64,000 bases of DNA, taken from positions 124,001 through 188,000 of the forward strand of contig NZ_MAXC01000004.1 of the NCBI RefSeq assembly GCF_001693485.1. The letters are read 5' to 3'. The position numbers and the translations under genes were made by a program. The stretch is from Bradyrhizobium sp. LMTR 3. GTDB lineage: Bacteria; Pseudomonadota; Alphaproteobacteria; Rhizobiales; Xanthobacteraceae. A model generated the notes under the pieces. That model did no database searches. It was not told the origin of the DNA and saw nothing but the letters and a program-made list of their open reading frames with translations. Each line of letters starts with the position of its first letter. Position 1 is the first letter of the stretch. Positions 36,880 through 48,797 of the stretch are shown here, one piece after another.

Positions 36880-38859
36880 CTAGGTCGTCTTCTCCTCGAG
36901 CACCGTCCTGCCTCGCGGCTTGCGGATGTCGTCGACATAGGCCTGCATTTCCGCCGACGGCTCCCTGCCGAGCTTGCTGACGATGTAGATGACAGCAAAG
37001 CCGAGCGGAGCGCCCAACAAGCCGCAGGCGATGTTAGTCAGGTTGAACCAGCCGACCTTGTTGGCCAGCGGGTGCGCGAGCGTCGGGAAGCTTTCCATGG
37101 CGTTTGGCAGCGCCATGGCCTTGGCGATATCGACCAGCGGCGCCCCCGTTGCCGCGTTCAATAGCGACGTCATGCCGAAGTACTTCACGCCCGCGCCCGG
37201 GAAGTACCGGGTCGTGACGAGATAGAACAGGCACAGTCCGAAGCCGGCGATGATGCCGCAGACTGCCCCGGTTGCTGTCGCGCGCTTCCACCACACGCCC
37301 ATCACGAGTGCCGGGAAATTGCCGGCCATCGCCAGCGAGAATGCCCAGCCGACCATGGCCAGGATATCGCCGGGCTTGGTCGCAGCCGTCGCGGCCGCAA
37401 CCACGGCGACGATCAGCAGCAGGATGCGGGCGATGATCAGCCGACGATGGGTCGGCGCGTTGGGGTCGATCATCTTGTAGTAGACGTCGTGGGAGAGTGC
37501 GTTGGCGATGGCGAGCAGCAGCCCGTCAGCGGTCGACAGCGCCGCGGCGAGACCGCCAGCCGCCACCAGGCCCGAGATCACGTACGGGAGTCCCGCGATT
37601 TCCGGCGTGGAAAGCACGATCACGTCCGTATTGATGACGAAGTCCTGCAGTCTCACGACCCCGGGATGACCGGCGATCGCCTTGCACGCTGCGACGACCG
37701 CATCGATGCTGCCTGCGTTCTTGCCGCAGATCTGGATCAGCCCAAGCTCACCCCAGTTGAACAACCACGGGCGAATGGCCGTCAGATCCCGTCCGATGAT
37801 GTTGGTGTAGACCTCCAGCTTCGAGAACGCCGCGTAGGCCGGCGCCGAGAAGTACAGCAGGAAGATGAACAGCAGCGACCACGCGACCGATTGGCGCGCT
37901 TCGCGCACCGACGGGGTAGTGAAGTAGCGCATCAGGATGTGCGGCAACGAAGCCGTGCCGACCATCATGCACATGATGATCGCGAAGAAGTTGAGTGGGG
38001 TGTAGTTGAAGAAGGGCTCAATGTGCGGCTTCAGCGTTGCGGCCGTCGTCAGGCCGGTCGCCAGCATCTGCTGCTCGCGCGCGGTGATATCCGCAATTGC
38101 CTGTCCGTACGTGAGCTCCGGAATCGGGAAGCCGTAGTTTTTGGTGGACAGGATCACGATCGGCGTCAGGTAGGCGATGATCAGCACGATGTACTGGGCC
38201 ACCTGGGTCCAGGTCACCGCCCGCATGCCGCCCAGCATCGAGCAGACCAGGATGCCGACAAGTCCGGCAAAGACGGCGATTTCGAACTGCATGCCGAGGA
38301 AGCGCGAGGCAATCAGGCCGGTGCCGTAGATCTGCGCCGTCACATAGGTGAAGGAGCAGGCCACCAGCACGATCACGCCGAGCGCACGGGCGAAATTGCC
38401 GCCGTAACGGAACGCAAGGAAGTCGGGAACGGTATAGGCGCCGAACTTGCGCAGGTACGGTCCGATCAGGATCGAAACCAGCACGAAGCCGCCGGTCCAT
38501 CCCAGCACCCATGCCAGGCCGTCATAGCCGAGCAGGAACAATGTGCCGGCCATACCGACGAACGATGCCGCGGACATCCAGTCGGCGCCGGTCGCCATGC
38601 CGTTGTAGAGTGCAGGCACGCTGCGGCCGGCGACGTAATATTCGGACACTTGCGCCGTGCGCGAGAGAATGCCGATGATGGCGTAGACCGCGAGCGTGAA
38701 GAACACGAACAGATAGCCGAGGATCTTGTTCGGGACCCCGACCTGTTCGAGCACGGCGAGCAAAATGACGAAGGCGAGAAAGCCGCCGGTGTAGATGCCG
38801 TAGACTTTTCCGAGATTATTGAGAAAGTCGGAACTGCCGCCTGAAGTTCTTGTAGCCAT
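36880..38859 (-). CDS. actP: Sodium:solute symporter, acetate/ActP type (VC_2705 subfamily)
   Basis: This 659-residue protein has about thirteen transmembrane helices of the SSS (LeuT-like) fold. ADWMSAASFVGMAGTLFLLGYDG, YVTAQIYGTGLIA and YLTPIVILS lie in the substrate and sodium-site helices, and GLAAALSTADGLLLAIANALSHDVY is the strongly conserved signature with the sodium-site residues. It belongs to the subfamily that is longer than E. coli ActP and works with a DUF4212 protein; the partner is directly upstream (14-bp gap). The substrate is likely acetate or another short-chain acid; the CrbS/CrbR-like genes nearby support acetate. Confidence 0.9.
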   Translation of the reverse strand: MATRTSGGSSDFLNNLGKVYGIYTGGFLAFVILLAVLEQVGVPNKILGYLFVFFTLAVYAIIGILSRTAQVSEYYVAGRSVPALYNGMATGADWMSAASFVGMAGTLFLLGYDGLAWVLGWTGGFVLVSILIGPYLRKFGAYTVPDFLAFRYGGNFARALGVIVLVACSFTYVTAQIYGTGLIASRFLGMQFEIAVFAGLVGILVCSMLGGMRAVTWTQVAQYIVLIIAYLTPIVILSTKNYGFPIPELTYGQAIADITAREQQMLATGLTTAATLKPHIEPFFNYTPLNFFAIIMCMMVGTASLPHILMRYFTTPSVREARQSVAWSLLFIFLLYFSAPAYAAFSKLEVYTNIIGRDLTAIRPWLFNWGELGLIQICGKNAGSIDAVVAACKAIAGHPGVVRLQDFVINTDVIVLSTPEIAGLPYVISGLVAAGGLAAALSTADGLLLAIANALSHDVYYKMIDPNAPTHRRLIIARILLLIVAVVAAATAATKPGDILAMVGWAFSLAMAGNFPALVMGVWWKRATATGAVCGIIAGFGLCLFYLVTTRYFPGAGVKYFGMTSLLNAATGAPLVDIAKAMALPNAMESFPTLAHPLANKVGWFNLTNIACGLLGAPLGFAVIYIVSKLGREPSAEMQAYVDDIRKPRGRTVLEEKTT

Positions 38860-38873
38860 GTCCGATGCTCCCC

Positions 38874-39152
38874 TTAATCTTCCTCGGCGAAGCCGAATTC
38901 GCGGTCAATCTTGTCTTGCTGTCTCGCGAACATGTACAGCATGACCACGAACACAATGAGTGAGCCCTGTGCGGCCATGTAGAAGCCGAGCGGGAAGCCC
39001 AGAACGGGAATGATGATAGCGTTGAGCGGCTTCACGAACATGTGGATGACGAAGCCGAAGAAGAACCAGACGCCGAGATGCGTGAACATCAGGCGAGAGG
39101 TCTTCGCCCAGTGCGCCTCTTCTCTCTGTTTCAGGTTTGCAGAATCAGCCAT
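38874..39152 (-). CDS. DUF4212 small symporter-associated membrane protein
   Basis: The 92-residue protein has the DUF4212 layout: a hydrophilic N-terminus with EEAHWAKTSRLMFTHLGVWF, then two helices (about 21-41 and 50-72), ending in a charged tail (DKIDREFGFAEED). The family is almost always found directly before an SSS symporter of the VC_2705 type and is thought to be its small subunit. ATG 39152 (MADSANLKQ) gives the family length; the 22 upstream codons are not conserved in type. The region upstream holds a perfect 14-bp palindrome (39209-39222). Confidence 0.88.
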   Translation of the reverse strand: MADSANLKQREEAHWAKTSRLMFTHLGVWFFFGFVIHMFVKPLNAIIIPVLGFPLGFYMAAQGSLIVFVVMLYMFARQQDKIDREFGFAEED

Positions 39153-39208
39153 CGGTTGCGTATCCTCCTCAAGACACCGGTCAGCAAAGCCGGGATTGAA
39201 TGATCGAG

Positions 39209-39222
39209 GGGATTGCAATCCC
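39209..39222. promoter_or_regulatory. Perfect palindrome upstream of the DUF4212-actP operon
   Basis: GGGATTGCAATCCC is a perfect 14-bp palindrome 57 bp upstream of the DUF4212 start, in the 279-bp gap to the divergent gene at 39432. A nearby imperfect inverted repeat is TCCCAACCG ... CGGTTTGGGA (about 39251-39280). A LuxR-type regulator such as the one at 42498 could bind it; that is inference. Confidence 0.5.
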
Positions 39223-39431
39223 GTAGTACGGCGTCCCCCCTTTGCCGCTGTCCCAACCGACTCTTTGGCGGTTTGGGATGGGAACTTCTAACATCCCGAA
39301 TGGCCAGCCTTAATAATACTTTCGGGGGGTAGAGCCTGCTAATGACGATGCTGCGTTGGAATCATTGGACTTTGCAGGTACCCGATTTTTCGTACAAGCT
39401 GACCTCAAGCTAGCCGCGGGACTGGAATGCA

Positions 39432-40040
39432 ATGAAGCTGTTCGAAAAACTGTTTCGTCCCCGTCCGCCGATTCGCGACCGTGGGGCACTCGCGGACTTC
39501 GTCGATGCGCAGTCGGCGTTCATCGTGCAGAAGGGCATCTACGAATATTCGCGCGCCCGCGCAGGCCATTACGCCAAGGTGCTGTTTGCCGAGGAAGGCT
39601 TCGCCAAATCGGTCGAACACGCACGCTGGCAGGCCTTTCCGCTCGGGCTGTCGATGGTCGGCGAGACGGTAGATGTCGTATTGCGTCCGCACGCCGGGGA
39701 AGAGCGCCGGGCGGTGCTCGACCAGATCATCGCGGTCGTGCTTTCGGTGTTCGACCGCTATCCGGTGCCGCCCTCGATCGGCGAGGCCGCCTGGCAGGAG
39801 GCGCGGCGCGAACTGGCGCATCGGCTCGACCTGGTCGGCGGGCACGCGCCCAAGCGGGTGATGGACATTCCCGAACCGCTGGCCGAGAGCTACTTTGCCA
39901 TGATGCCGATCCACGAAAAGCTGCGCGGGCGCGATTTCGCCACCACGCGCAACTACCTGCGCGTCAGCCTGTGCAACATCCATGACGAGTTGGTCGATCG
40001 GATCGATGCGCCTGCCGTGACCAGCGCACTGCTTGAATAG
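39432..40040 (+). CDS. Conserved-looking protein of unknown function
   Basis: The 202-residue soluble protein begins MKLFEKLFRPRPPIRD. A helical middle (DFVDAQSAFIVQKGIYEYSRARAGHYAKVLF) leads to a Pro-rich turn and RRELAHRLDLVGGHAPKRVMDIPE, then YFAMMPIHEKLRGRDF. No transmembrane segment or known catalytic motif is visible. It is divergent from the symporter operon and 72 bp before the exonuclease-CBS-DUF294 fusion on the same strand. This places it inside the acetate-type module, with a possible accessory or regulatory part that cannot be named from sequence alone. Confidence 0.82.
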   Translation: MKLFEKLFRPRPPIRDRGALADFVDAQSAFIVQKGIYEYSRARAGHYAKVLFAEEGFAKSVEHARWQAFPLGLSMVGETVDVVLRPHAGEERRAVLDQIIAVVLSVFDRYPVPPSIGEAAWQEARRELAHRLDLVGGHAPKRVMDIPEPLAESYFAMMPIHEKLRGRDFATTRNYLRVSLCNIHDELVDRIDAPAVTSALLE

Positions 40041-40112
40041 GGCGTCAGGCACATTGCCAACGCCAGGCTTGTCGACCGGCATCCACGGTGCGGCGGCGAG
40101 GGGAGGAGGCTG

Positions 40113-42245
40113 ATGGACAGGGCGGCTGGCAGTGTCCCGCTGTTGTCACTCGACGCCGTTGTCATCGACGTCGAAACCACCGGGCTCGATCCACGCAAGG
40201 CGCGGGTGATCGAGCTTGCCGGCGTGCGGCTCACCGCTGGAAAACTGGTTGCCGACGGTTCGTTCCGTCAATTGGTTCGGCCGGCCGGCGAGACAATACC
40301 AGCCGAGACGACATGCATCCATGGCATCGACGATGCCATGGTGGCCGGCTCGCCGCGTTTTTCGGAGGTTTGGCCGCGCTTCGACGCGTTTGTCGGTCGG
40401 GCCGTCGTCGTCGGGCACATGATCGGTTTCGATCTCGCGATGCTGAAGCGCGAATGCGAACTGGCGGGGTTGCCATGGTCGCGGCCCCGGACGCTCGATA
40501 CCAGGTTACTTGCGGAGATCGCCGCGCCGGATCTGGCCGGCTATGAGCTGGAGAAGCTCTCGGCCTGGCTCGGCATCGACATGGTCGACCGGCATTCTGC
40601 GCTGGGCGATGCGATCACGACGGTGCGGATATTCCTGGCGCTGGTGCCGAAGCTGCGCGAACACGGCATCCGGACCGTTGCCGAAGCCGAACGGGCCTGT
40701 CGCGCGCTCACCGCCGTGCTCGACGATCAAGTGCGCAGCGGCTGGATCGAGGCAGTCGACGCAGCGGCCCGCCTCGATTCCGAGCAAACCCTGAAGCGCT
40801 TCGACAGCTATGCGTTCCGCCACCGCGTCGGCGGCATCATGCGGACGCCGGCGATCTTCGTCCCGCCGGATGCCACGGTCGGCGAAGCGCTGGCGCAAAT
40901 GGCGGACGAGAAGATATCGGCCATTTACGTGCGCGGACTGCCGCCGGGCCCGGAAGTCAGGGCGGCTGAGGCGGGTATCGTGACGGAGCGCGATGTGCTG
41001 CGCGCCGTCTCCCGGCTCGGTGCCCAGGCACTGCAGCGGCCAGTCGCTGAGATCATGAGCACGCCGCTGGCAGCGGTCCCGGCGGATGCGCTTGTCTATC
41101 GCGCGATCGCCCGGATGAATCGTCTCAAGACCCGCCATCTCGGTGTTGTCGACGACGCCGGCCACGTGGCCGGTGCATTGTCGACGCGCGATCTGCTGCG
41201 CCTGCGCGCGGGCGATGCCATATCGCTCGGCGAGGAGATCGACGATGCAGGCGACGCGCATGCGCTGTCGGCGGCCTGGGCGCAGTTGCCGCGCATCGCG
41301 CGAATGCTTCTGGCGGAAGGATTGTCCGGTCGCGATATCGCCGAAGTGATTTCCCTGGAACTGGGCGCTCTTTCCCGCCAGGCCGCGGTGATCGCCGAGC
41401 GGATGATGCGGGAGAGCGGCCGGGGCGGGCCGCCGTGCGAGTATGCTCTGCTGGTGCTCGGATCGGCCGGACGCGGCGAAAGTCTGCTGGCGATGGATCA
41501 GGACAATGCCGTGATCTTTGCGCACGGCGACCCTGATGGCGAGGAGGATCGCTGGTTTGCCGAACTCGGGACGCATGTCGCCGATATCCTGCACGAGGTC
41601 GGCGTGCCCTATTGCAAGGGCGGCGTCATGGCGAAGAACGCGCTTTGGCGCGGCTCGGTGGCAACATGGCAGGATCGCGTCGACAAGTGGATCACACGTT
41701 CCAGTCCCGCCGATCTGTTGTCCGTCGATATCTTCTTCGACCTGCGGGCGGTTAACGGCGACGGCGGCTTTGCCGTCTCGGTGCGTCAGGCGGCCTTCGC
41801 GGCGGCCGAAGGCCAGGTCGCGTTTATCAAACTGTTGGTCGAGAACGTCAGCGTTCCGGCGAGCCTGAAATTTTTCGGTGGGATCCGAACGGTCGCCGGC
41901 CGTATCGACCTCAAGGCGGCCGGACTGTTTGGTCTCGTTGCATGGGTGCGCGCGATGGCAATCCGCTATCACGTCATGGAGCGGTCGACGTCGGCGCGAC
42001 TGGGCGGCGTGAAGGCGAGGGTTCGGGCCAGCGAGAGCGATCTCGATGCGCTTGGCGAAGCGCAGGGCACCTTTCTCGATCTCATCCTGTCGCAGCAGGT
42101 TGAGGACATCGCCCACGGCATCCCGCCATCCAACGCGGTTGCCGTGAAGCGATTGTCCAGCCGCGACCTCGATCGGCTGCGTACGGCGCTTGCTGCGGTT
42201 TCCAACATCGATGAGCTCGGCCGCGACCTCCTGTTCAAGGATTGA
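40113..42245 (+). CDS. DnaQ-like exonuclease, CBS pair and DUF294 nucleotidyltransferase fusion
   Basis: The 710-residue protein joins three domains. Residues 1-180 are a DEDDh 3'-5' exonuclease with Asp19 and Glu21 (VIDVETTG), Asp107 (GFDLAM), His161 and Asp166 (HSALGDA), all present. Residues 243-365 are two CBS motifs (MRTPAIFVPPDATVGEALAQ and MSTPLAAVPADALVYRAI), which often bind adenosine nucleotides. Residues 385-705 are a DUF294/GlnD-like nucleotidyltransferase with GSAGRGE (450-456) and the metal pair Asp462/Asp464. It could be a nucleotide-sensing modifier of a transporter or enzyme. It lies between the symporter operon and the CrbR-like regulator. Confidence 0.9.
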   Translation: MDRAAGSVPLLSLDAVVIDVETTGLDPRKARVIELAGVRLTAGKLVADGSFRQLVRPAGETIPAETTCIHGIDDAMVAGSPRFSEVWPRFDAFVGRAVVVGHMIGFDLAMLKRECELAGLPWSRPRTLDTRLLAEIAAPDLAGYELEKLSAWLGIDMVDRHSALGDAITTVRIFLALVPKLREHGIRTVAEAERACRALTAVLDDQVRSGWIEAVDAAARLDSEQTLKRFDSYAFRHRVGGIMRTPAIFVPPDATVGEALAQMADEKISAIYVRGLPPGPEVRAAEAGIVTERDVLRAVSRLGAQALQRPVAEIMSTPLAAVPADALVYRAIARMNRLKTRHLGVVDDAGHVAGALSTRDLLRLRAGDAISLGEEIDDAGDAHALSAAWAQLPRIARMLLAEGLSGRDIAEVISLELGALSRQAAVIAERMMRESGRGGPPCEYALLVLGSAGRGESLLAMDQDNAVIFAHGDPDGEEDRWFAELGTHVADILHEVGVPYCKGGVMAKNALWRGSVATWQDRVDKWITRSSPADLLSVDIFFDLRAVNGDGGFAVSVRQAAFAAAEGQVAFIKLLVENVSVPASLKFFGGIRTVAGRIDLKAAGLFGLVAWVRAMAIRYHVMERSTSARLGGVKARVRASESDLDALGEAQGTFLDLILSQQVEDIAHGIPPSNAVAVKRLSSRDLDRLRTALAAVSNIDELGRDLLFKD

Positions 42246-42405
42246 CGCAAAGTTTCTTTTCGAAAGCGAAGCAATTTTTTCCGAGTTCCCTGTAGGCTCG
42301 GCCGGCCCGCCCCAAATCTCCAGTTGTTCATATTTTTTGCGTTGCACCATTCGAAGGAAATCGGTGCCGATTAACTGCTTTTGCGCGACGCGGGAAAGGT
42401 TGCCT

Positions 42406-42463
42406 TGCAAGTCGCTTCCTGACAGTGGACAATCAAATTGCTGTCAATCAGCAACGACTTGCA
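42406..42463. promoter_or_regulatory. Nested 58-bp dyad upstream of the CrbR-like gene
   Basis: The outer arms TGCAAGTCG (42406-42414) and CGACTTGCA (42455-42463) are perfect inverted copies. Inner arms TGACAG (42420-42425) and CTGTCA (42441-42446) share nearly the same centre. The element ends 34 bp before the start at 42498. It may be a regulatory leader hairpin or a two-site operator. Confidence 0.6.
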
Positions 42464-42497
42464 TGCTTTCCCGACCTCTTGTCGGTGCCCGGAACAG

Positions 42498-43169
42498 ATG
42501 ATTGCTGCCAATACCCACCTCGTCATCGCCGATGACCATCCGCTCTTTCGCGACGCTCTGCGGCAGGCGGTTGCCAGTGTCGTGGCTTCGGCCGCCGTCA
42601 GCGAAGCCGGCACGTTCGACGAACTCACCGCGCTGCTCGAGCGCGATTCCGACGTCGACCTGATCCTGCTCGATCTCACGATGCCGGGGATTTCGGGCTT
42701 CTCGGGGTTGATCTACCTGCGGGCGCAATATCCGGCGATCCCGGTGGTGATCGTATCGGCAAGCGACGATGCGGGCACGATCCGGCGGTCGCTCGATTTC
42801 GGCGCCTCCGGCTTCATCCCCAAGCGCTTCGGCGTCGAGACGCTGCGCGATGCCATCATGAAGGTGATGGAGGGAGATATCTGGGTGCCGCCGGACACCG
42901 ATCTCTCCTCGGCCACCGACCCCGACATGACACGGCTGCGCGACCGCCTGGTGACGCTCACCCCGCAACAGGTGCGCGTGCTGATGATGCTGTCGGAGGG
43001 GCTGCTCAACAAGCAGATCGCCTATGAGCTCGGCGTCTCCGAAGCGACCATCAAGGCGCACGTCTCGGCGATCCTGCAAAAGCTCGGCGTCGAAAGCCGT
43101 ACGCAGGCGGTTATTGCGGCCGCGAAAATCTCCGGCGGCCAGTGGCGCCAGGGCACGCCGACGACTTAG
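42498..43169 (+). CDS. crbR: LuxR-type response regulator, CrbR-like
   Basis: The 223-residue protein has a receiver domain (about 5-125) with ADDH (11-14) and phosphoacceptor Asp59 in LILLDLTMP, and a LuxR HTH (about 153-210, LTPQQVRVLMMLSEGLLNKQIAYELGVS). ATG 42498 gives the standard N-terminus. Its neighbours, an SSS-fused hybrid kinase, an actP-DUF4212 pair and a DUF294 protein, match the acetate-switch regulator CrbR (also known as MxtR/ErdR relatives) of gammaproteobacteria. The kinase gene is on the other strand, separated by a RAYT element. The assignment is by context and domain type. Confidence 0.85.
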   Translation: MIAANTHLVIADDHPLFRDALRQAVASVVASAAVSEAGTFDELTALLERDSDVDLILLDLTMPGISGFSGLIYLRAQYPAIPVVIVSASDDAGTIRRSLDFGASGFIPKRFGVETLRDAIMKVMEGDIWVPPDTDLSSATDPDMTRLRDRLVTLTPQQVRVLMMLSEGLLNKQIAYELGVSEATIKAHVSAILQKLGVESRTQAVIAAAKISGGQWRQGTPTT

Positions 43170-43170
43170 A

Positions 43171-43210
43171 CCGTAGGATGGGCGGAGCGCAGCGATACCC
43201 ATCACCTCGC
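43171..43210. repeat. REP-like element, left flank of the RAYT gene
   Basis: This 40-bp sequence is inverted at 43768-43807 with one mismatch. Each copy has its own hairpin, GATGGG ... CCCATC. It begins 1 bp after the crbR stop (43169). Confidence 0.85.
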
Positions 43211-43223
43211 TAAGCGTGTGCGC

Positions 43224-43760
43224 ATGACCAGCTATCGCCGCAATTTCATTGCCGGAGGCAGTTTCTTTTTCACGGTCAATCTAGCTGACCGCCGGCTACA
43301 ATTGCTAACCGAAAATATCGATGCACTGCGGACAGCCTTCCGCGAGACGCAACGGCGCCATCCGTTCGCGATCGATGCGATCGTTGTGTTGCCTGACCAT
43401 CTCCACACGGTCTGGACCCTGCCGGAGGGCGATGAGGATTTCTCCACGCGGTGGCGACTTATCAAGACATCCTTCTCCCGGAAGCTTCCTTTGGGCGAGC
43501 CGATCTCAAGCAGTCGTATCGCCAAAGACGAACGCGGTATCTGGCAGCGACGCTATTGGGAGCACACGATTCGCGACGAGATCGATTTTTCGCGTCACAT
43601 CGACTACGTTCACATCAACCCTGTCAAACATGGCCATGTGAAACGTGTCAGCGATTGGCCATATTCGTCGTTTCATCGCATGGTGAAAAACGGTGTCTAT
43701 CCAGAGGATTGGGCAGGCGATGCTTCCGGCCTCGACGGGGAGTTTGGCGAGCGGCGTTGA
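43224..43760 (+). CDS. REP-associated tyrosine transposase (RAYT)
   Basis: The 178-residue protein belongs to the Y1/IS200-like HUH transposase superfamily. The metal-binding motif is His59-Leu-His61 in VVLPDHLHTVWTLPEGD. The nucleophile is expected to be Tyr128 in HIDYVHINPVKHG, and WPYSSF follows, as in RAYT proteins. These single-copy proteins act on REP hairpins rather than mobilise themselves like IS elements. It is flanked by 40-bp inverted REP copies (43171-43210 and 43768-43807). ATG 43224 gives MTSYRRNFIAGG, the usual start; GTG 43218 is an alternative. The reading frame appears intact. Confidence 0.9.
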   Translation: MTSYRRNFIAGGSFFFTVNLADRRLQLLTENIDALRTAFRETQRRHPFAIDAIVVLPDHLHTVWTLPEGDEDFSTRWRLIKTSFSRKLPLGEPISSSRIAKDERGIWQRRYWEHTIRDEIDFSRHIDYVHINPVKHGHVKRVSDWPYSSFHRMVKNGVYPEDWAGDASGLDGEFGERR

Positions 43761-43767
43761 ATACGTC

Positions 43768-43807
43768 GCGAGGTGATGGGTATCGCTGCGCTCCACCCAT
43801 CCTACGG
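43768..43807. repeat. REP-like element, right flank of the RAYT gene
   Basis: This is the inverted partner of 43171-43210, 39 of 40 bases identical. It ends 14 bp before the kinase stop codon (43821). The hairpin stem is GATGGGT/ACCCATC-like. Confidence 0.85.
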
Positions 43808-43820
43808 TCTCGCAATTCGG

Positions 43821-46800
43821 CTACTCCGCCGCCACCATCTGCTGCGCCCGCCACTGGCCGAGCAGGGCGCGGAGCGATGCCGGCTTGACCGGCTTGTTGA
43901 GGATCGCGATGTTTTCCTCGCGCGCGGCCGCGCGGACGTTGGGGCTGCGGTCGGCCGTGATCAGGATGGCGGGAATGTTTTCGCCGAACCGGCGGCGGAT
44001 CTCGCGGATCGCGGCAACGCCGTTGCCGCGGTCGAGATGATAGTCGACCAGAAGGCCGGTCACGCTGTGGCCGGACAATTCGATCGCAGCTATCGCGGCT
44101 TCCGGGTCAGCTACCGCGATCACCTCGGCGTTCCAGGCCGTCAGCAGCGTCTTCATGCCGTCCAGGATCGCCGGATCGTTCTCGATGCAGACGATCAAGG
44201 CGCCACTCATAGGCATCTTGGAAAGCGGCGTCGCGCTGGTGACGGCGTGGGTGTAGTTGACCGCCTTGGCGACCGGCACGGTCACCGAAAATACCGAGCC
44301 GCCGCTGACGTTGGCGTCGATCGCGATGCCGTGGTTGAGCACACGCGCCAGCCGCTCGACGATCGATAGACCAAGGCCGAGGCCGCGGGCGATCCGCGCG
44401 CCCTGCTCGAGGCGGTGGAACTCCTTGAAAATCTCGCCGCGCTTCATCACGGGAATGCCGACGCCGGTATCGTAGACGGCGATCTGCAAGGATTGTCCGT
44501 GGCGGCGGCAGCCGACCAGCACGCGCCCGCGCGGGGTGTATTTGATCGCGTTGGAGATGAAGTTCTGCAGCAGCCGCCGCAGCAGCGAGCGGTCGGATTG
44601 CACCGGCAGCGAGCAGGGGACGAAGGTCAGCTCCAGCCCCTTGGCGCGGGCGATCGGCGCAAACTCGATCTCCAACGAGCGCATCAGGTCGGCCATCTTG
44701 AAGCTCGAGATCGAGGTCGTCATTGCCCCCGCATCGAGCCGCGAAATATCCAGCAGCGCGCCGAGGATCTCCTCGATCGCCTCCAGCGAGTCGTCGATGT
44801 TCTCGACCAGGCGGGAATCTTCGCCGCCGTTCTGCCGCTCGACGAGGCTCGTGACGTAGAGCCGCGCCGCATTCAGCGGCTGCAGGATGTCGTGGCTGGC
44901 GGCCGCCAGGAACCGGGTCTTCGAGATGTTGGCGTCCTCGGCGGTGCTCTTGGCCTGCGCCAGTTCGGAGTTCAGGCGCGTCAGTTCCTCGGTGCGATCG
45001 CGCACGCGCTTTTCCAGCGTCGCATTGGCGCGTTCCAGCGCCTCGGCGGCCTCGAAGCTCGGGGTCACGTCGGAGAAGGTGATGACGAGGCCGCCGCCCG
45101 GCATCCGGTTGGAGCGGACCTCGATCACCATATGGCGATCGGCCAGGCGCTCCAGATAAGGTCTGCCCTCGGTGGTGTACGCCTCCAGCCGCCGCGTCAA
45201 TAGCGCATCGGGATCGTCGGCGCCGGACGCACCGACCGCGCCCATGAATTCGAGGATTTCCTGCAAGGGAATGCCGAGCTGCACGAGGTGCGGCGGCAGC
45301 GCGAGGATTTCGCCAAACTGGCGGTTCGAGCAGATCAGTTGCAGATCGGCGTCGAACACCGCGATGCCTTGGCGCACATGGTTGAGCGCGGTCTGCAGGA
45401 TCTCGCGGTTGAAATGCAGCGCGGCGTGCGAATCGTCGAGCAGCTTCAGCGCGGCCTTGGCGGAGACGGTGCGCTTGCGCAAGAGAAGCGACATCACGAG
45501 GCGCGAGGAGGCCGCGCCGATCGAGGAGGCGATCAGGCGCTCGGCGTATTGCAGCAACTCGAAATCGGCAGGTGCCGCCGGATCGAGGTTGCCGGGATGA
45601 CCGGCCGCAAAGGTCTCGAAGGCCTGGGCCGCGCGCTCGGGGCCGAGATATTGCGCCACCGTGCTCTGGATGTCCTGCACGGTCACGGTCGTGCGCCAGC
45701 GCCGGAACGTCGGGGCGATCGGCGCCAGCGTGTTCGGCACGAACAGGTCCGCCTGCAGCCGTTCGATCGAGGACGGCTGGCGCGCGATCGACATCAGGAC
45801 GTAGGTCAGGATGTTGAGCGCGAGCGACCAGAACACGCCATGCATCAGCGGTGGCAGGTCGGTGCCGAGCAGCGCCTGGGGACGCAACGCCACGATGCCG
45901 AACGGTCCCTGCTGCAACAACAGAAGGCCGGCAGTGCTGTTCTCCAGGAAACTCGGCAGGAACAGCGTGTAGAGCCACACCGCGACGCCGACCAGCATGC
46001 CGCCCATCGCCCCGCGTGCGGTCCCCTGGCGCCACAGCAGGCCGCCGAAGAACGCCGGCGCGAGTTGCGCCAGCGCCGCGAACGACAGCAGGCCGATCGC
46101 CGCCAATTGGGTGTTGCCGAGCGCGCGGTAGTAGAAATACGCCATCACCATGATGGCGAAGATCGCCAAGCGCCTAATCTTGAGCAGGAAGTCGCCGAAA
46201 TCCTTGCTGCCGTAGCGCGCCCCGGGACTTCCCTTCAGCACCATCGGCAGCACGATGTCGTTGGAGACCATGATGGAGAGCGCGACGCATTCGACGATCA
46301 CCATCGCGGTCGCGGCCGACAGGCCGCCGACGAACACGGCAATGCTGAGCAGCGCGGAATTTGCCTCGATCGGCAGCGCCAGCACATACATGTCGCTGTC
46401 GACGGCGCCGAACGGGAAGGTGACGAGACCGGCGATCGCGATTGGAATCACGAACAGGTTGATGGCGATCAGATAGAGCGGAAACAGCCAGCGGGCGCGA
46501 TTGACCTCCTCGAGACTGGAATTCTCGACCACGCTGACGTGGAACTGTCGCGGCAGCAGCATGATCGCGCAAAACGACAACAGCGTCATGGTCAGGAAAT
46601 TGCCGATCGACGGCACGTAGCTGATGGCGCGCACTGCCTCCGGTGTCTTCATCGCGCGCTCGATCAGTTCGACGGGCGTGAACATCCAGAAGGTGACGAA
46701 AGCGCCGGCGGCCATAAAGGCCACCAGCTTGACGATGGACTCGGTGGCGATTGCCAGCATCAGGCCGTGCTGGTGCTCGGTGGCGTCGGTCTGGCGAGTG

Positions 46801-47330
46801 CCGAACAGCACCGCAAATGCCGCCATCGCGAGCGTAACGACCAGCGCGATGTCGCCGATCAGCGGCATCGATGAGAACAGCTTGTCCTCGGTCAGGATCG
46901 TCTCCAGCGACGATGCCACCGCCTTGAGCTGCAGGGCGATGTAGGGCACCGAACCCACGATCGCGATAACGGCCACGGTGGCGGCGACCGCCTGGCTCTT
47001 GCCGTAGCGCGCCGCGATGAAGTCGGCGATCGAGGTGATGTTCTGCGACTTGGCGAGCTGGATCACGCGCCGCAGCAGCGGCGTGCAAAGCCCGATCATC
47101 AGGATCGGCCCGACATAGATCGCAAGGAAGTCGACGCTGGTGCGGGTGGCGAAGCCGACCGAGCCGAAAAAGGTCCAGGACGTGCAGTAGATCGCGAGCG
47201 ACAGCGGATAGATCAGCATGCTGGCGCGGCCGCGCTGGCTCGGCGACAGGCGGTCGCCGTAGCTCGCGACGACGAACAGCAGTCCGATATAGGCGAACGC
47301 GGTGGCGATTACGCCCCAGTCGTGCAGCAT
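43821..47330 (-). CDS. crbS: SSS-fused hybrid histidine kinase, CrbS-like
   Basis: The 1169-residue protein starts with a sodium-solute-symporter-like domain of about thirteen helices (about 5-520). A linker and a PAS domain follow (about 650-770, FDADLQLICSNRQFG), then coiled coil, HisKA with His813 in AAASHDILQPLN, HATPase_c (NFISNAIKYTPRG and YDTGVGIP) and a C-terminal receiver with Asp1096 in LLVDYHLD. This is the layout of CrbS/MxtR acetate-switch kinases, in which the transporter-like part may sense its substrate. The likely partner is the LuxR-type regulator at 42498. It lies 111 bp downstream of hemA on the same strand. Confidence 0.9.
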   Translation of the reverse strand: MLHDWGVIATAFAYIGLLFVVASYGDRLSPSQRGRASMLIYPLSLAIYCTSWTFFGSVGFATRTSVDFLAIYVGPILMIGLCTPLLRRVIQLAKSQNITSIADFIAARYGKSQAVAATVAVIAIVGSVPYIALQLKAVASSLETILTEDKLFSSMPLIGDIALVVTLAMAAFAVLFGTRQTDATEHQHGLMLAIATESIVKLVAFMAAGAFVTFWMFTPVELIERAMKTPEAVRAISYVPSIGNFLTMTLLSFCAIMLLPRQFHVSVVENSSLEEVNRARWLFPLYLIAINLFVIPIAIAGLVTFPFGAVDSDMYVLALPIEANSALLSIAVFVGGLSAATAMVIVECVALSIMVSNDIVLPMVLKGSPGARYGSKDFGDFLLKIRRLAIFAIMVMAYFYYRALGNTQLAAIGLLSFAALAQLAPAFFGGLLWRQGTARGAMGGMLVGVAVWLYTLFLPSFLENSTAGLLLLQQGPFGIVALRPQALLGTDLPPLMHGVFWSLALNILTYVLMSIARQPSSIERLQADLFVPNTLAPIAPTFRRWRTTVTVQDIQSTVAQYLGPERAAQAFETFAAGHPGNLDPAAPADFELLQYAERLIASSIGAASSRLVMSLLLRKRTVSAKAALKLLDDSHAALHFNREILQTALNHVRQGIAVFDADLQLICSNRQFGEILALPPHLVQLGIPLQEILEFMGAVGASGADDPDALLTRRLEAYTTEGRPYLERLADRHMVIEVRSNRMPGGGLVITFSDVTPSFEAAEALERANATLEKRVRDRTEELTRLNSELAQAKSTAEDANISKTRFLAAASHDILQPLNAARLYVTSLVERQNGGEDSRLVENIDDSLEAIEEILGALLDISRLDAGAMTTSISSFKMADLMRSLEIEFAPIARAKGLELTFVPCSLPVQSDRSLLRRLLQNFISNAIKYTPRGRVLVGCRRHGQSLQIAVYDTGVGIPVMKRGEIFKEFHRLEQGARIARGLGLGLSIVERLARVLNHGIAIDANVSGGSVFSVTVPVAKAVNYTHAVTSATPLSKMPMSGALIVCIENDPAILDGMKTLLTAWNAEVIAVADPEAAIAAIELSGHSVTGLLVDYHLDRGNGVAAIREIRRRFGENIPAILITADRSPNVRAAAREENIAILNKPVKPASLRALLGQWRAQQMVAAE

Positions 47331-47387
47331 CGCTGCTTCTCTCCCTTCCAGGCCAGGGAACCGGAAGCCGGACTATAAACGCATTAA

Positions 47388-47412
47388 GCCGGCGGCGCAC
47401 CGCGCCACCGGC
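47388..47412 (-). terminator. Hairpin downstream of hemA
   Basis: The 11-bp arms 47388-47398 and 47402-47412 pair across a 3-nt loop. As minus-strand RNA they contain a G-U wobble, while the plus-strand form would have a mismatch, so it suits the hemA transcript. The following sequence is poor in T, so termination may be incomplete and crbS may be partly cotranscribed. Confidence 0.5.
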
Positions 47413-47441
47413 CCAATCTGCTTGAATTCAGAGGGGTAGGG

Positions 47442-48671
47442 TTACTCGGCCGCCAGCGATTTCTGCCTCACGGGCAAGCCGAGGCGTTCCCAGACCTGCA
47501 GCAGCGCTTCGGCGAGCCGATCGATCAGCCCGTCATCGTGGTAGGGCGAGGGCGTGATCCGCAGCCGCTCGGTGCCCTTGGCGACCGTCGGATAGTTGAT
47601 CGGCTGGATGTAGATGCCGTGCTCTTCCAGGAGGATGTCGGAAGCCTGCTTGCACTTCTCGGGATCGCCGACGAACAGCGGCACGATGTGGGTGTCGCTC
47701 GACATCACGGGCAGCCCTGCGGCGGTGAGGATCGCCTTGACGCGGGCGGCGCGGTCCTGGTGGCGCTCGCGTTCCCAGTTCGAGGTCTTCAGATGCCGGA
47801 TCGCAGCCGTTGCGGCCGAGCAGATCGCCGGCGGCAGCGCGGTGGTGAAGATGAAGCCCGGCGCGTAGGAGCGGACCGCGTCGATGATCTCGGCATTGCC
47901 GGCGATATAGCCGCCGAGGCAACCGAACGCCTTGGCGAGCGTGCCTTCGAGCACGTCGATGCGGTGCATGACGCCGTCGCGCTCGGCGATGCCGCCGCCG
48001 CGCGGGCCGTACATCCCGACCGCATGGACCTCGTCGACATAGGTCATGGCGCCGTATTTCTCGGCGAGATCGCAGATTTTCGACAGCGGCGCGACGTCGC
48101 CGTCCATCGAATAGAGGCTCTCGCAGGCGATCAGCTTGGGCCGGTCGGGGCCTGCAGCGATCAAAAGTTCCTCGAGATGGGCGAGGTCGTTATGGCGGAA
48201 GATCTGGCGCTCGCAGCCGGCCTGGCGGACGCCCTCGATCATCGAATTGTGGTTCAGCGCGTCGGATAGGATGAGGCAGTTCGGAATGAGCTTTGCGATC
48301 GTCGAAATGCCGGTCTGGTTCGACACATAGCCCGAGGTGAACAGCAGCGAGGCCTGCTTGCCATGCAGGTCGGCCAGTTCCTGCTCGAGCTGCACCAGCG
48401 GATGATGGGTGCCGGCGATGTTGCGGGTGCCGCCGGCGCCGGTGCCGACGCGGGTCGCGGTTTCGACCATGGCGCCGACCACTTTGGGGTGCTGGCCCAT
48501 GCCGAGATAGTCGTTGGAGCACCAGATCACGACATCGCGCTTGCCCTTCGGCGAGTGCCAGACCGCATGTGGGAAACGGCCCGCGATCCGCTCGAGGTCG
48601 GCGAAAACGCGGTAGCGCCGCTCGTCATGCAGGCGATTGAGGGCGGCGTGGAAGAATTTGCTGTAATCCAT
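47442..48671 (-). CDS. hemA: 5-aminolevulinate synthase
   Basis: This 409-residue PLP enzyme condenses glycine and succinyl-CoA to 5-aminolevulinate, the first step of heme synthesis in alphaproteobacteria (C4 pathway). The PLP lysine is Lys247 in [43 protein letters not shown] and [15 protein letters not shown] are typical blocks. ATG 48671 ([11 protein letters not shown]) gives the known rhizobial length; the 41 codons upstream are non-coding. A perfect FixK/FNR-type box at 48798-48811 suggests oxygen control. Heme supply matters for the oxidase cluster and for symbiotic growth. Confidence 0.96.
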
Positions 48672-48797
48672 CACAAGACCTGGAACGGAACCGGCCGTAT
48701 TGGCGTGGGGCCTTTTTAGAGCCTTTCCAGCTTTGATGTCCATGCGAATTCCCACATTTCGGCGCGCCTCCGGAATGCTACTTAGCCGGAGCAAATG

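Follow-up and report, generated by a model that had tools for sequence, protein, structure and literature searches.

The window analysed here, a stretch of 64,000 nucleotides from Bradyrhizobium sp. LMTR 3 (assembly GCF_001693485.1, contig NZ_MAXC01000004.1, positions 124,001 to 188,000), carries a two-component pair, the LuxR-type response regulator CrbR and the hybrid kinase CrbS, next to a set of genes that points to the uptake of small carboxylates. The set consists of an SSS (SLC5) symporter with its small DUF4212 subunit, a divergent gene for a protein of 202 amino acids, called u202 here, and a fusion of an exonuclease with CBS and DUF294 nucleotidyltransferase domains (Table 1). We consider it likely that these genes form a CrbS/CrbR acetate switch of Bradyrhizobium to which an uptake cassette is linked. 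An earlier note on this DNA, made from the letters alone, had listed the genes, and checks of open reading frame (ORF) coordinates together with Pfam and NCBIfam scans (E 0.001) found place, strand and domains correct throughout; its guess of a rhizobium-like host was also right.

Table 1. Features of the locus, with positions counted from the first letter of the window.
Feature	Position	Strand	Basis
VC_2705-family SSS (SLC5) symporter, "actP-like", 659 aa	36880..38859	-	TIGR03648 673 bits, Pfam SSF
DUF4212 small symporter subunit	38874..39152 (start approximate)	-	PF13937 and TIGR03647 over cut-off; start codon (ATG, about 39152) taken from the sequence
Divergent promoter region, DUF4212 / 202-aa gene	39153..39431	.	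alignment of 6 genus genomes
Conserved element CCCCCCGAAAGTATTATT, half-degenerate ACTU-like site, reading towards DUF4212	39312..39329	-	
u202, 202 aa, predicted all-helical, linked to DUF4212-symporter	39432..40040	+	without Pfam/NCBIfam match
Fusion, 710 aa: RNase_T (DEDDh exonuclease)-CBS-CBS-DUF294 (nucleotidyltransferase)-DUF294_C	40113..42245	+	Pfam
crbR, receiver and LuxR response regulator	42438..43169	+	best NCBIfam match ErdR
crbS, SLC5-STAC-PAS-HisKA-HATPase-REC hybrid kinase	43821..47330	-	Pfam PAS_7, HisKA, HATPase_c, receiver; fold; tree
REP-associated tyrosine transposase gene, outside the module	43218..43760	+	NF047646 205 bits, cut-off 80
hemA, 5-aminolevulinate synthase, syntenic neighbour outside the module	47442..48794	-	TIGR01821 694 bits

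The N-terminal part of CrbS has no match to Pfam SSF at E 0.001. When a profile built from 28 CrbS N-termini is compared with PDB sequences, a single entry passes E <= 0.01, namely 10ed (E 1.9e-93, profile positions 7-595), a code that appears in the preprint on the SLC5-STAC structure of CbrA (PMC13022988; papers are cited here by such numbers and are represented by excerpts of their text). The predicted model of the kinase (mean pLDDT 77) resembles SLC5 transporters in Foldseek (best E 7.7e-9), and profile-profile comparison relates the sensor to the symporter family with 97% probability. Because the profile matches 10ed and the model matches SLC5 folds, the earlier description of the kinase as SSS-fused is right, and by these comparisons its N-terminal sensor is genuinely of the SLC5 type. 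Assignment of the STAC domain rests on the CbrA alignment, which extends to profile position 595; model confidence is lower in that part. By hand count in the CbrA alignment, CbrA K196 and S53 fall on K201 and T50 of the window kinase, both invariant over 28 aligned rows; in CbrA, K196 occupies the Na2 site and S53 contacts the carboxylate of the bound histidine (PMC13022988), and the aligned residues suggest that the CrbS sensor may be proton-coupled and carboxylate-binding. CbrA thus shares the SLC5-STAC sensor and the Na2-site lysine with the window kinase and differs in its histidine ligand and in its remaining domains, for which the preprint excerpts name PAS, DHp and CA, with no receiver.

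In a midpoint-rooted tree of 25 kinases, in which CrbS of S. fredii NGR234 has no row, the window kinase falls into a Hyphomicrobiales clade of 14 (support 100/100) that also includes rows from Sinorhizobium (among them Sinorhizobium sp. 6-70), Rhizobium and Mesorhizobium; the P. aeruginosa kinase lies outside it. RpuS of pNGR234b and two Bradyrhizobium second copies form a separate clade (100/100), so that identity of the window kinase with RpuS was rejected. RpuS/RpuR has the same domain plan at about 43% identity, yet differs not only in clade but also in its operon layout with mctP-DUF3311 neighbours (PMC9100948).

The regulator gene more likely starts at an ATG at about 42498 than at the TTG. 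Among the named crbS loci, which are the best 80 of at least 595 relatives and therefore biased towards close ones, crbR was located in 57, and in 56 of these it is encoded opposite to and downstream of crbS; a Sinorhizobium locus (L160) shares this arrangement. The kinase tree and the position of crbR bear out the earlier assignment to the CrbS/CrbR type, under which we file the pair from its sequence. In S. fredii, too, the genes for CrbS and CrbR lie side by side and converge, and neither mutant grows on acetate (PMC9100948). That system is among the closest described ones and shares several features, namely the hybrid SLC5/STAC kinase, the adjoining convergent LuxR regulator and the Sinorhizobium row in the clade of the window kinase, whereas the text available for it contains no DUF4212, DUF294 or exonuclease and the window has the symporter-u202-fusion cassette beside crbR. 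In 37/80 named loci, including Sinorhizobium L160, crbS is immediately preceded, on the opposite strand, by an ORF read as mscL, and the legend of figure 1 in PMC9100948 mentions mscL without stating which of its two systems the gene adjoins.

The cassette is built around a symporter of the VC_2705 family (TIGR03648, cut-off 320.75) with a DUF4212 protein that scores 81 bits on TIGR03647 (cut-off 26). The earlier name actP needs correction in so far as the symporter does not belong to the E. coli ActP type: on the model TIGR02711 it scores 167 bits, against a cut-off of 1099. The symporter probably serves monocarboxylate uptake. Our literature searches covered few subscription papers, and within that coverage no paper on DUF4212 was found.

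For u202 there is no Pfam or NCBIfam match at E 0.001. Its AlphaFold model is all-helical (pLDDT 89), and the best Foldseek hit (E 0.81) gives no clear PDB relative; VIA-align finds a best Z of 8.8 against an LptG chain over 139 residues, a value within the VIA-align range for helical models without relatives. A profile search of PDB sequences returned just two matches (E 0.87 and 0.88), and tblastn against plasmids none at E 1e-5. All 47 aligned rows have P159 and D168, and 45 of them have Y39. The family was found in 56 of 397 genomes of the order (E <= 1e-6), in 46 of 289 of the class (E <= 1e-5) and in 4 of 299 drawn from the phylum (E 0.001), all four from the same genus or class, the out-of-class share of the 299 not having been counted. 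In sequence terms u202 thus appears as an uncharacterised family, seen only within the class in the genomes drawn.

The order loci of u202 that were mapped number 41, the window and 40 of the other 55 (13 were not fetched), and partners were searched within about 8 kb or to contig ends. Near u202 stand the symporter in 31, DUF4212 in 32, the CBS-DUF294 gene in 25, crbS in 20 and crbR in 15; at least one partner is present in 39/41, the exceptions being L238 and L244, and DUF4212 and u202 are divergent neighbours in 26/41. Two order genomes outside the 41 (G028, G037) likewise have u202 with module partners. Among 20 class loci mapped out of 45, the symporter and DUF4212 are each found near u202 in 18, the CBS-DUF294 gene in 12 (one a 140-aa fragment) and the exonuclease in 11, and a partner is found in 19/20, with none in L312, which lies at a contig end. 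The cassette or parts of it also recur at the named crbS loci L126, L129, L134, L135 and others. Gene order varies between families, which argues for selection on the association. A conserved neighbourhood in related genomes, which the earlier note had set as its own check, is therefore present in both the order and the class.

Within the genus, 25/25 genomes searched have the N-terminal kinase part (with the gene divided between two frames in G003), and u202 and the symporter (E <= 1e-60) in the same 6/25. Because of this difference the switch is taken as core in the genus sample and the uptake cassette as accessory, apparently gained or lost as a unit. All seven mapped cassette-free genus loci (L049-L055) keep crbR, crbS and hemA in the order of the window, at varying spacing. 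One genus locus (L215, genome G399) has the symporter, DUF4212, u202, crbR and crbS, with the fusion gene undetected in the stretch and a u202-crbR gap of 258 bp; it is a natural experiment on whether the module can do without the fusion. Two class genomes of 1.2 Mb (G725, locus L326; G828, locus L325) retain u202 divergent from DUF4212-symporter, with no crbS within the 14 kb fetched; L326 adds neighbouring CBS-DUF294 and exonuclease genes.

Operator sites were sought with a matrix derived from 20 P. fluorescens ACTU sites (PMC5715377) and scored against dinucleotide shuffles. Of 37 DUF4212 promoters from beyond the genus, 27 have a best score with p <= 0.05, compared with 10 of 116 crbS and 5 of 49 hemA upstream regions; L129, from the same genome as L042, was dropped from the promoter counts, and many rows are related and not independent events. 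No acs lies in the window, as had been remarked before; the genome has the gene over cut-off on another contig (C13, at C13:52411). Its promoter holds a palindrome of the CrbR type (ACTU), GACCAAGGTC, about 120 bp upstream of the ATG (shuffle p 0.013). In 20/24 acs promoters of the genus the best ACTU match starts at -127 to -106, a zone of 22 bp, with p <= 0.05 in 13/24; for acs promoters from other families the count is 1/5.

The following mechanism would join these parts. The SLC5 domain of CrbS would bind, and perhaps carry, a small carboxylate; the STAC domain would relay the change to the hybrid kinase, which would phosphorylate CrbR. CrbR would bind ACTU-type palindromes and activate acs on the other contig and probably also the divergent symporter/u202 promoter, which would place the window symporter under its control. 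The symporter and its DUF4212 subunit would import acetate or a related monocarboxylate, while u202 and the fusion would act as accessory proteins of the transporter that may fine-tune uptake, the fusion probably sensing adenine nucleotides via its CBS domains and nucleotidylating a partner. Of this scheme, gene content, the clade of the kinase, the fold of the sensor, linkage over families, conserved catalytic residues and operator statistics are what the analysis shows; the ligand, the phosphotransfer, CrbR binding and all roles of u202 and the fusion we infer.

Several results weigh against this mechanism. The DUF4212 promoter of the window has a best ACTU score of p 0.41, which is not significant, and only 1/10 such promoters of the genus reach p <= 0.05, with scores like those of shuffles. 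With a symmetric matrix derived from the order, 1/10 genus DUF4212 promoters and 0/29 acs promoters reach p <= 0.05, a result that speaks against a strongly conserved operator in the genus; the evidence for an acs operator consequently rests on the Pseudomonas matrix and on position. Outside the genus the order-derived matrix is no independent test, since it was trained on the 27 passing promoters. The regulator scores 243 bits on the exception-type ErdR model NF041830, under its cut-off of 390. Among the class stretches crbS is near u202 in 1/20, so that the cassette needs no CrbSR alongside. Finally, P. fluorescens mutants in actP, the small partner and the CBS protein have a negligible acetate effect, singly and in the combinations made (PMC5715377), which implies that the role of the cassette may be confined to low substrate concentrations or to pyruvate. 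The ACTU-like site at the symporter promoter of the window is, by its sequence, degenerate; a half-site, C(C/G)AAAGT(A/C)T(A/T)AT, holds its position in 9/10 genus promoters, although this pattern was picked after seeing the alignment.

Such results give some room to an alternative in which CrbR controls acs only, the adjoining cassette being a passenger that in the genus is regulated separately. The degenerate operator, the presence of the cassette markers in 6 genus genomes compared with 25 for the kinase, and the 19/20 class stretches in which crbS was unseen near u202 speak for it. We nevertheless regard it as unlikely: in several families the cassette lies next to crbSR, in more than one gene order, crbS stands at nearly half of the order loci of u202 (20/41), the promoters outside the genus have significant ACTU-like sites, and the element keeps its place within it. 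The substrate is a separate question, because the symporter family is defined by sequence and not by substrate, and mxtR, erdR, pp_0353 and actP-I mutants of P. putida are impaired on pyruvate (PMC9927547); switch and cassette might then serve pyruvate or another monocarboxylate instead of acetate, as RpuS/R does for mctP. This seems to us rather improbable, as the window kinase does not group with RpuS, the acs promoters of the genus have ACTU-like sites, and in S. fredii, where crbS and crbR mutants fail on acetate, the crbS mutant is normal on pyruvate (PMC9100948).

The earlier note, which saw correctly that hemA adjoins the kinase, suggested that the layout may link carbon uptake, a nucleotide signal and heme synthesis. 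A functional unit of crbS and hemA, coupling acetate supply to heme synthesis, might draw on the frequency of the pair, as hemA lies upstream of crbS on the same strand in 38/80 named loci (one at 9.8 kb), and at <= 4 kb in 31/67 of those with enough flank, and on the window gap of 111 bp (47331-47441), inside which no terminator-like site is listed. The gap in named loci within 4 kb, however, ranges from 115 bp to 3.5 kb, and in Mesorhizobium L152 two opposite-strand ORFs, read as aminotransferase and MscL, intervene. The pair is moreover kept irrespective of the cassette (7/7 cassette-free genus loci); hemA does not track the cassette, and the heme link as a part of the module was rejected. 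We hold the coupling to be very improbable and read hemA beside crbS as old synteny that does not belong to the uptake module. The same-strand position of hemA upstream of crbS extends across several Hyphomicrobiales families.

In the exonuclease-CBS-DUF294 fusion, D19, E21, D107, H161 and D166, which we take to be the DEDDh set, and G450, S451, D462 and D464, which we take to be that of the nucleotidyltransferase, are invariant in 28/28 aligned rows, and because both residue sets are invariant both catalytic centres are probably active. The N-terminal exonuclease is present on the CBS-DUF294 gene in 25/25 order loci, a count from a separate check; the iterated exonuclease profile had extended into the CBS part. 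In five class loci (L315, L320, L326, L327, L329) exonuclease and CBS-DUF294 are separate side-by-side ORFs, which in L320 overlap widely, so that a frame break is possible there.

Nucleotidyltransferases of the GlnD type are bifunctional and have HD and ACT domains. The fusion likewise combines a GlnD-like nucleotidyltransferase, a phosphodiester-cleaving domain and a small-molecule sensor in one chain, with the DEDDh exonuclease in place of HD and CBS in place of ACT; HD and ACT domains were not among its Pfam matches at E 0.001. We speculate, while considering it improbable, that the fusion could be a GlnD-like two-way switch in which DUF294 nucleotidylates a partner of the acetate transporter, DEDDh removes the nucleotide, and the adenylate charge, read by CBS, sets the balance between the two; u202 (for example at Tyr39) or the DUF4212 subunit would be the partner. 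In that case the energy state of the cell would gate acetate entry post-transcriptionally, as the nitrogen state does PII. DUF294_C has been grouped with the HEPN-like C-terminal domains of GlnD/GlnE-type nucleotidyltransferases (PMC3710099), and the P. fluorescens CBS protein was predicted to act through regulation by nucleotidylation (PMC5715377); as the latter prediction already covers nucleotidylation by the CBS protein on its own, what our proposal adds is its reversal through the fused nuclease and a partner at the transporter. In P. putida pp_0353 (RNase_T) and pp_0354 (CBS) form one MxtR/ErdR-controlled operon, of which pp_0353 is required for normal growth on pyruvate and the pp_0354 mutant is normal on acetate, succinate and pyruvate; their homologues in P. 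aeruginosa PAO1 adjoin actP (PMC9927547). On the fusion together with actP, the literature search returned two Pseudomonas papers and one unrelated paper, few subscription papers being covered.

The regulator type, the content of the regulon and the operator are already known, and the cassette minus u202 corresponds to targets reported in Pseudomonas. The MxtR/ErdR (CrbS/R) regulon there includes acs, actP with a small membrane partner, a CBS-nucleotidyltransferase, an RNase_T exonuclease and the ACTU operator (PMC9927547, PMC5715377), with actP, pp_0354 and pp_0353 among the P. putida targets (PMC9927547). It differs from the window in that separate genes encode the exonuclease and the CBS protein, the small partner belongs to DUF485, u202 is unmentioned in the excerpts of the two papers, and the locus numbers of crbS, crbR and acs are far apart. 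New are the cassette with u202, the exonuclease-nucleotidyltransferase fusion and the reach of the operator. Beyond the S. fredii paper and a PAS-domain survey, the search, with its few subscription papers, found no literature on the system in Bradyrhizobium or on CrbR with actP in Alphaproteobacteria. The acetate switch of Pseudomonas and Vibrio and its operator are thereby extended further into alphaproteobacterial soil bacteria, and a name is given to an unannotated family, u202, which accompanies the symporter even in two 1.2-Mb genomes. As the fusion unites two genes of the Pseudomonas regulon with strictly kept catalytic sites, a direct biochemical test is possible.

Two smaller observations concern the surroundings of the kinase. 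Outside the window, a second SLC5-type kinase of 924 aa, without a receiver, is encoded at G000:C5:44656-51449 (locus L048; kinase at C5:47144), with an exonuclease upstream, at the end of a 719-aa ORF that was scanned without its N-terminal part. Downstream lies a CBS-DUF294 gene in convergent orientation. The exonuclease, the CBS-nucleotidyltransferase and an SLC5 kinase accordingly associate twice in one genome, independently; around this 924-aa kinase type both neighbours lie within about 8 kb in 7/19 loci examined. In the window, the transposase gene, absent from the earlier gene list, sits between the convergent crbR and crbS (43168-43810) and is flanked by 43-nt inverted repeats that are 98% complementary, and a partial copy (residues 1-65) occupies the same place in another genome (G023, locus L041).

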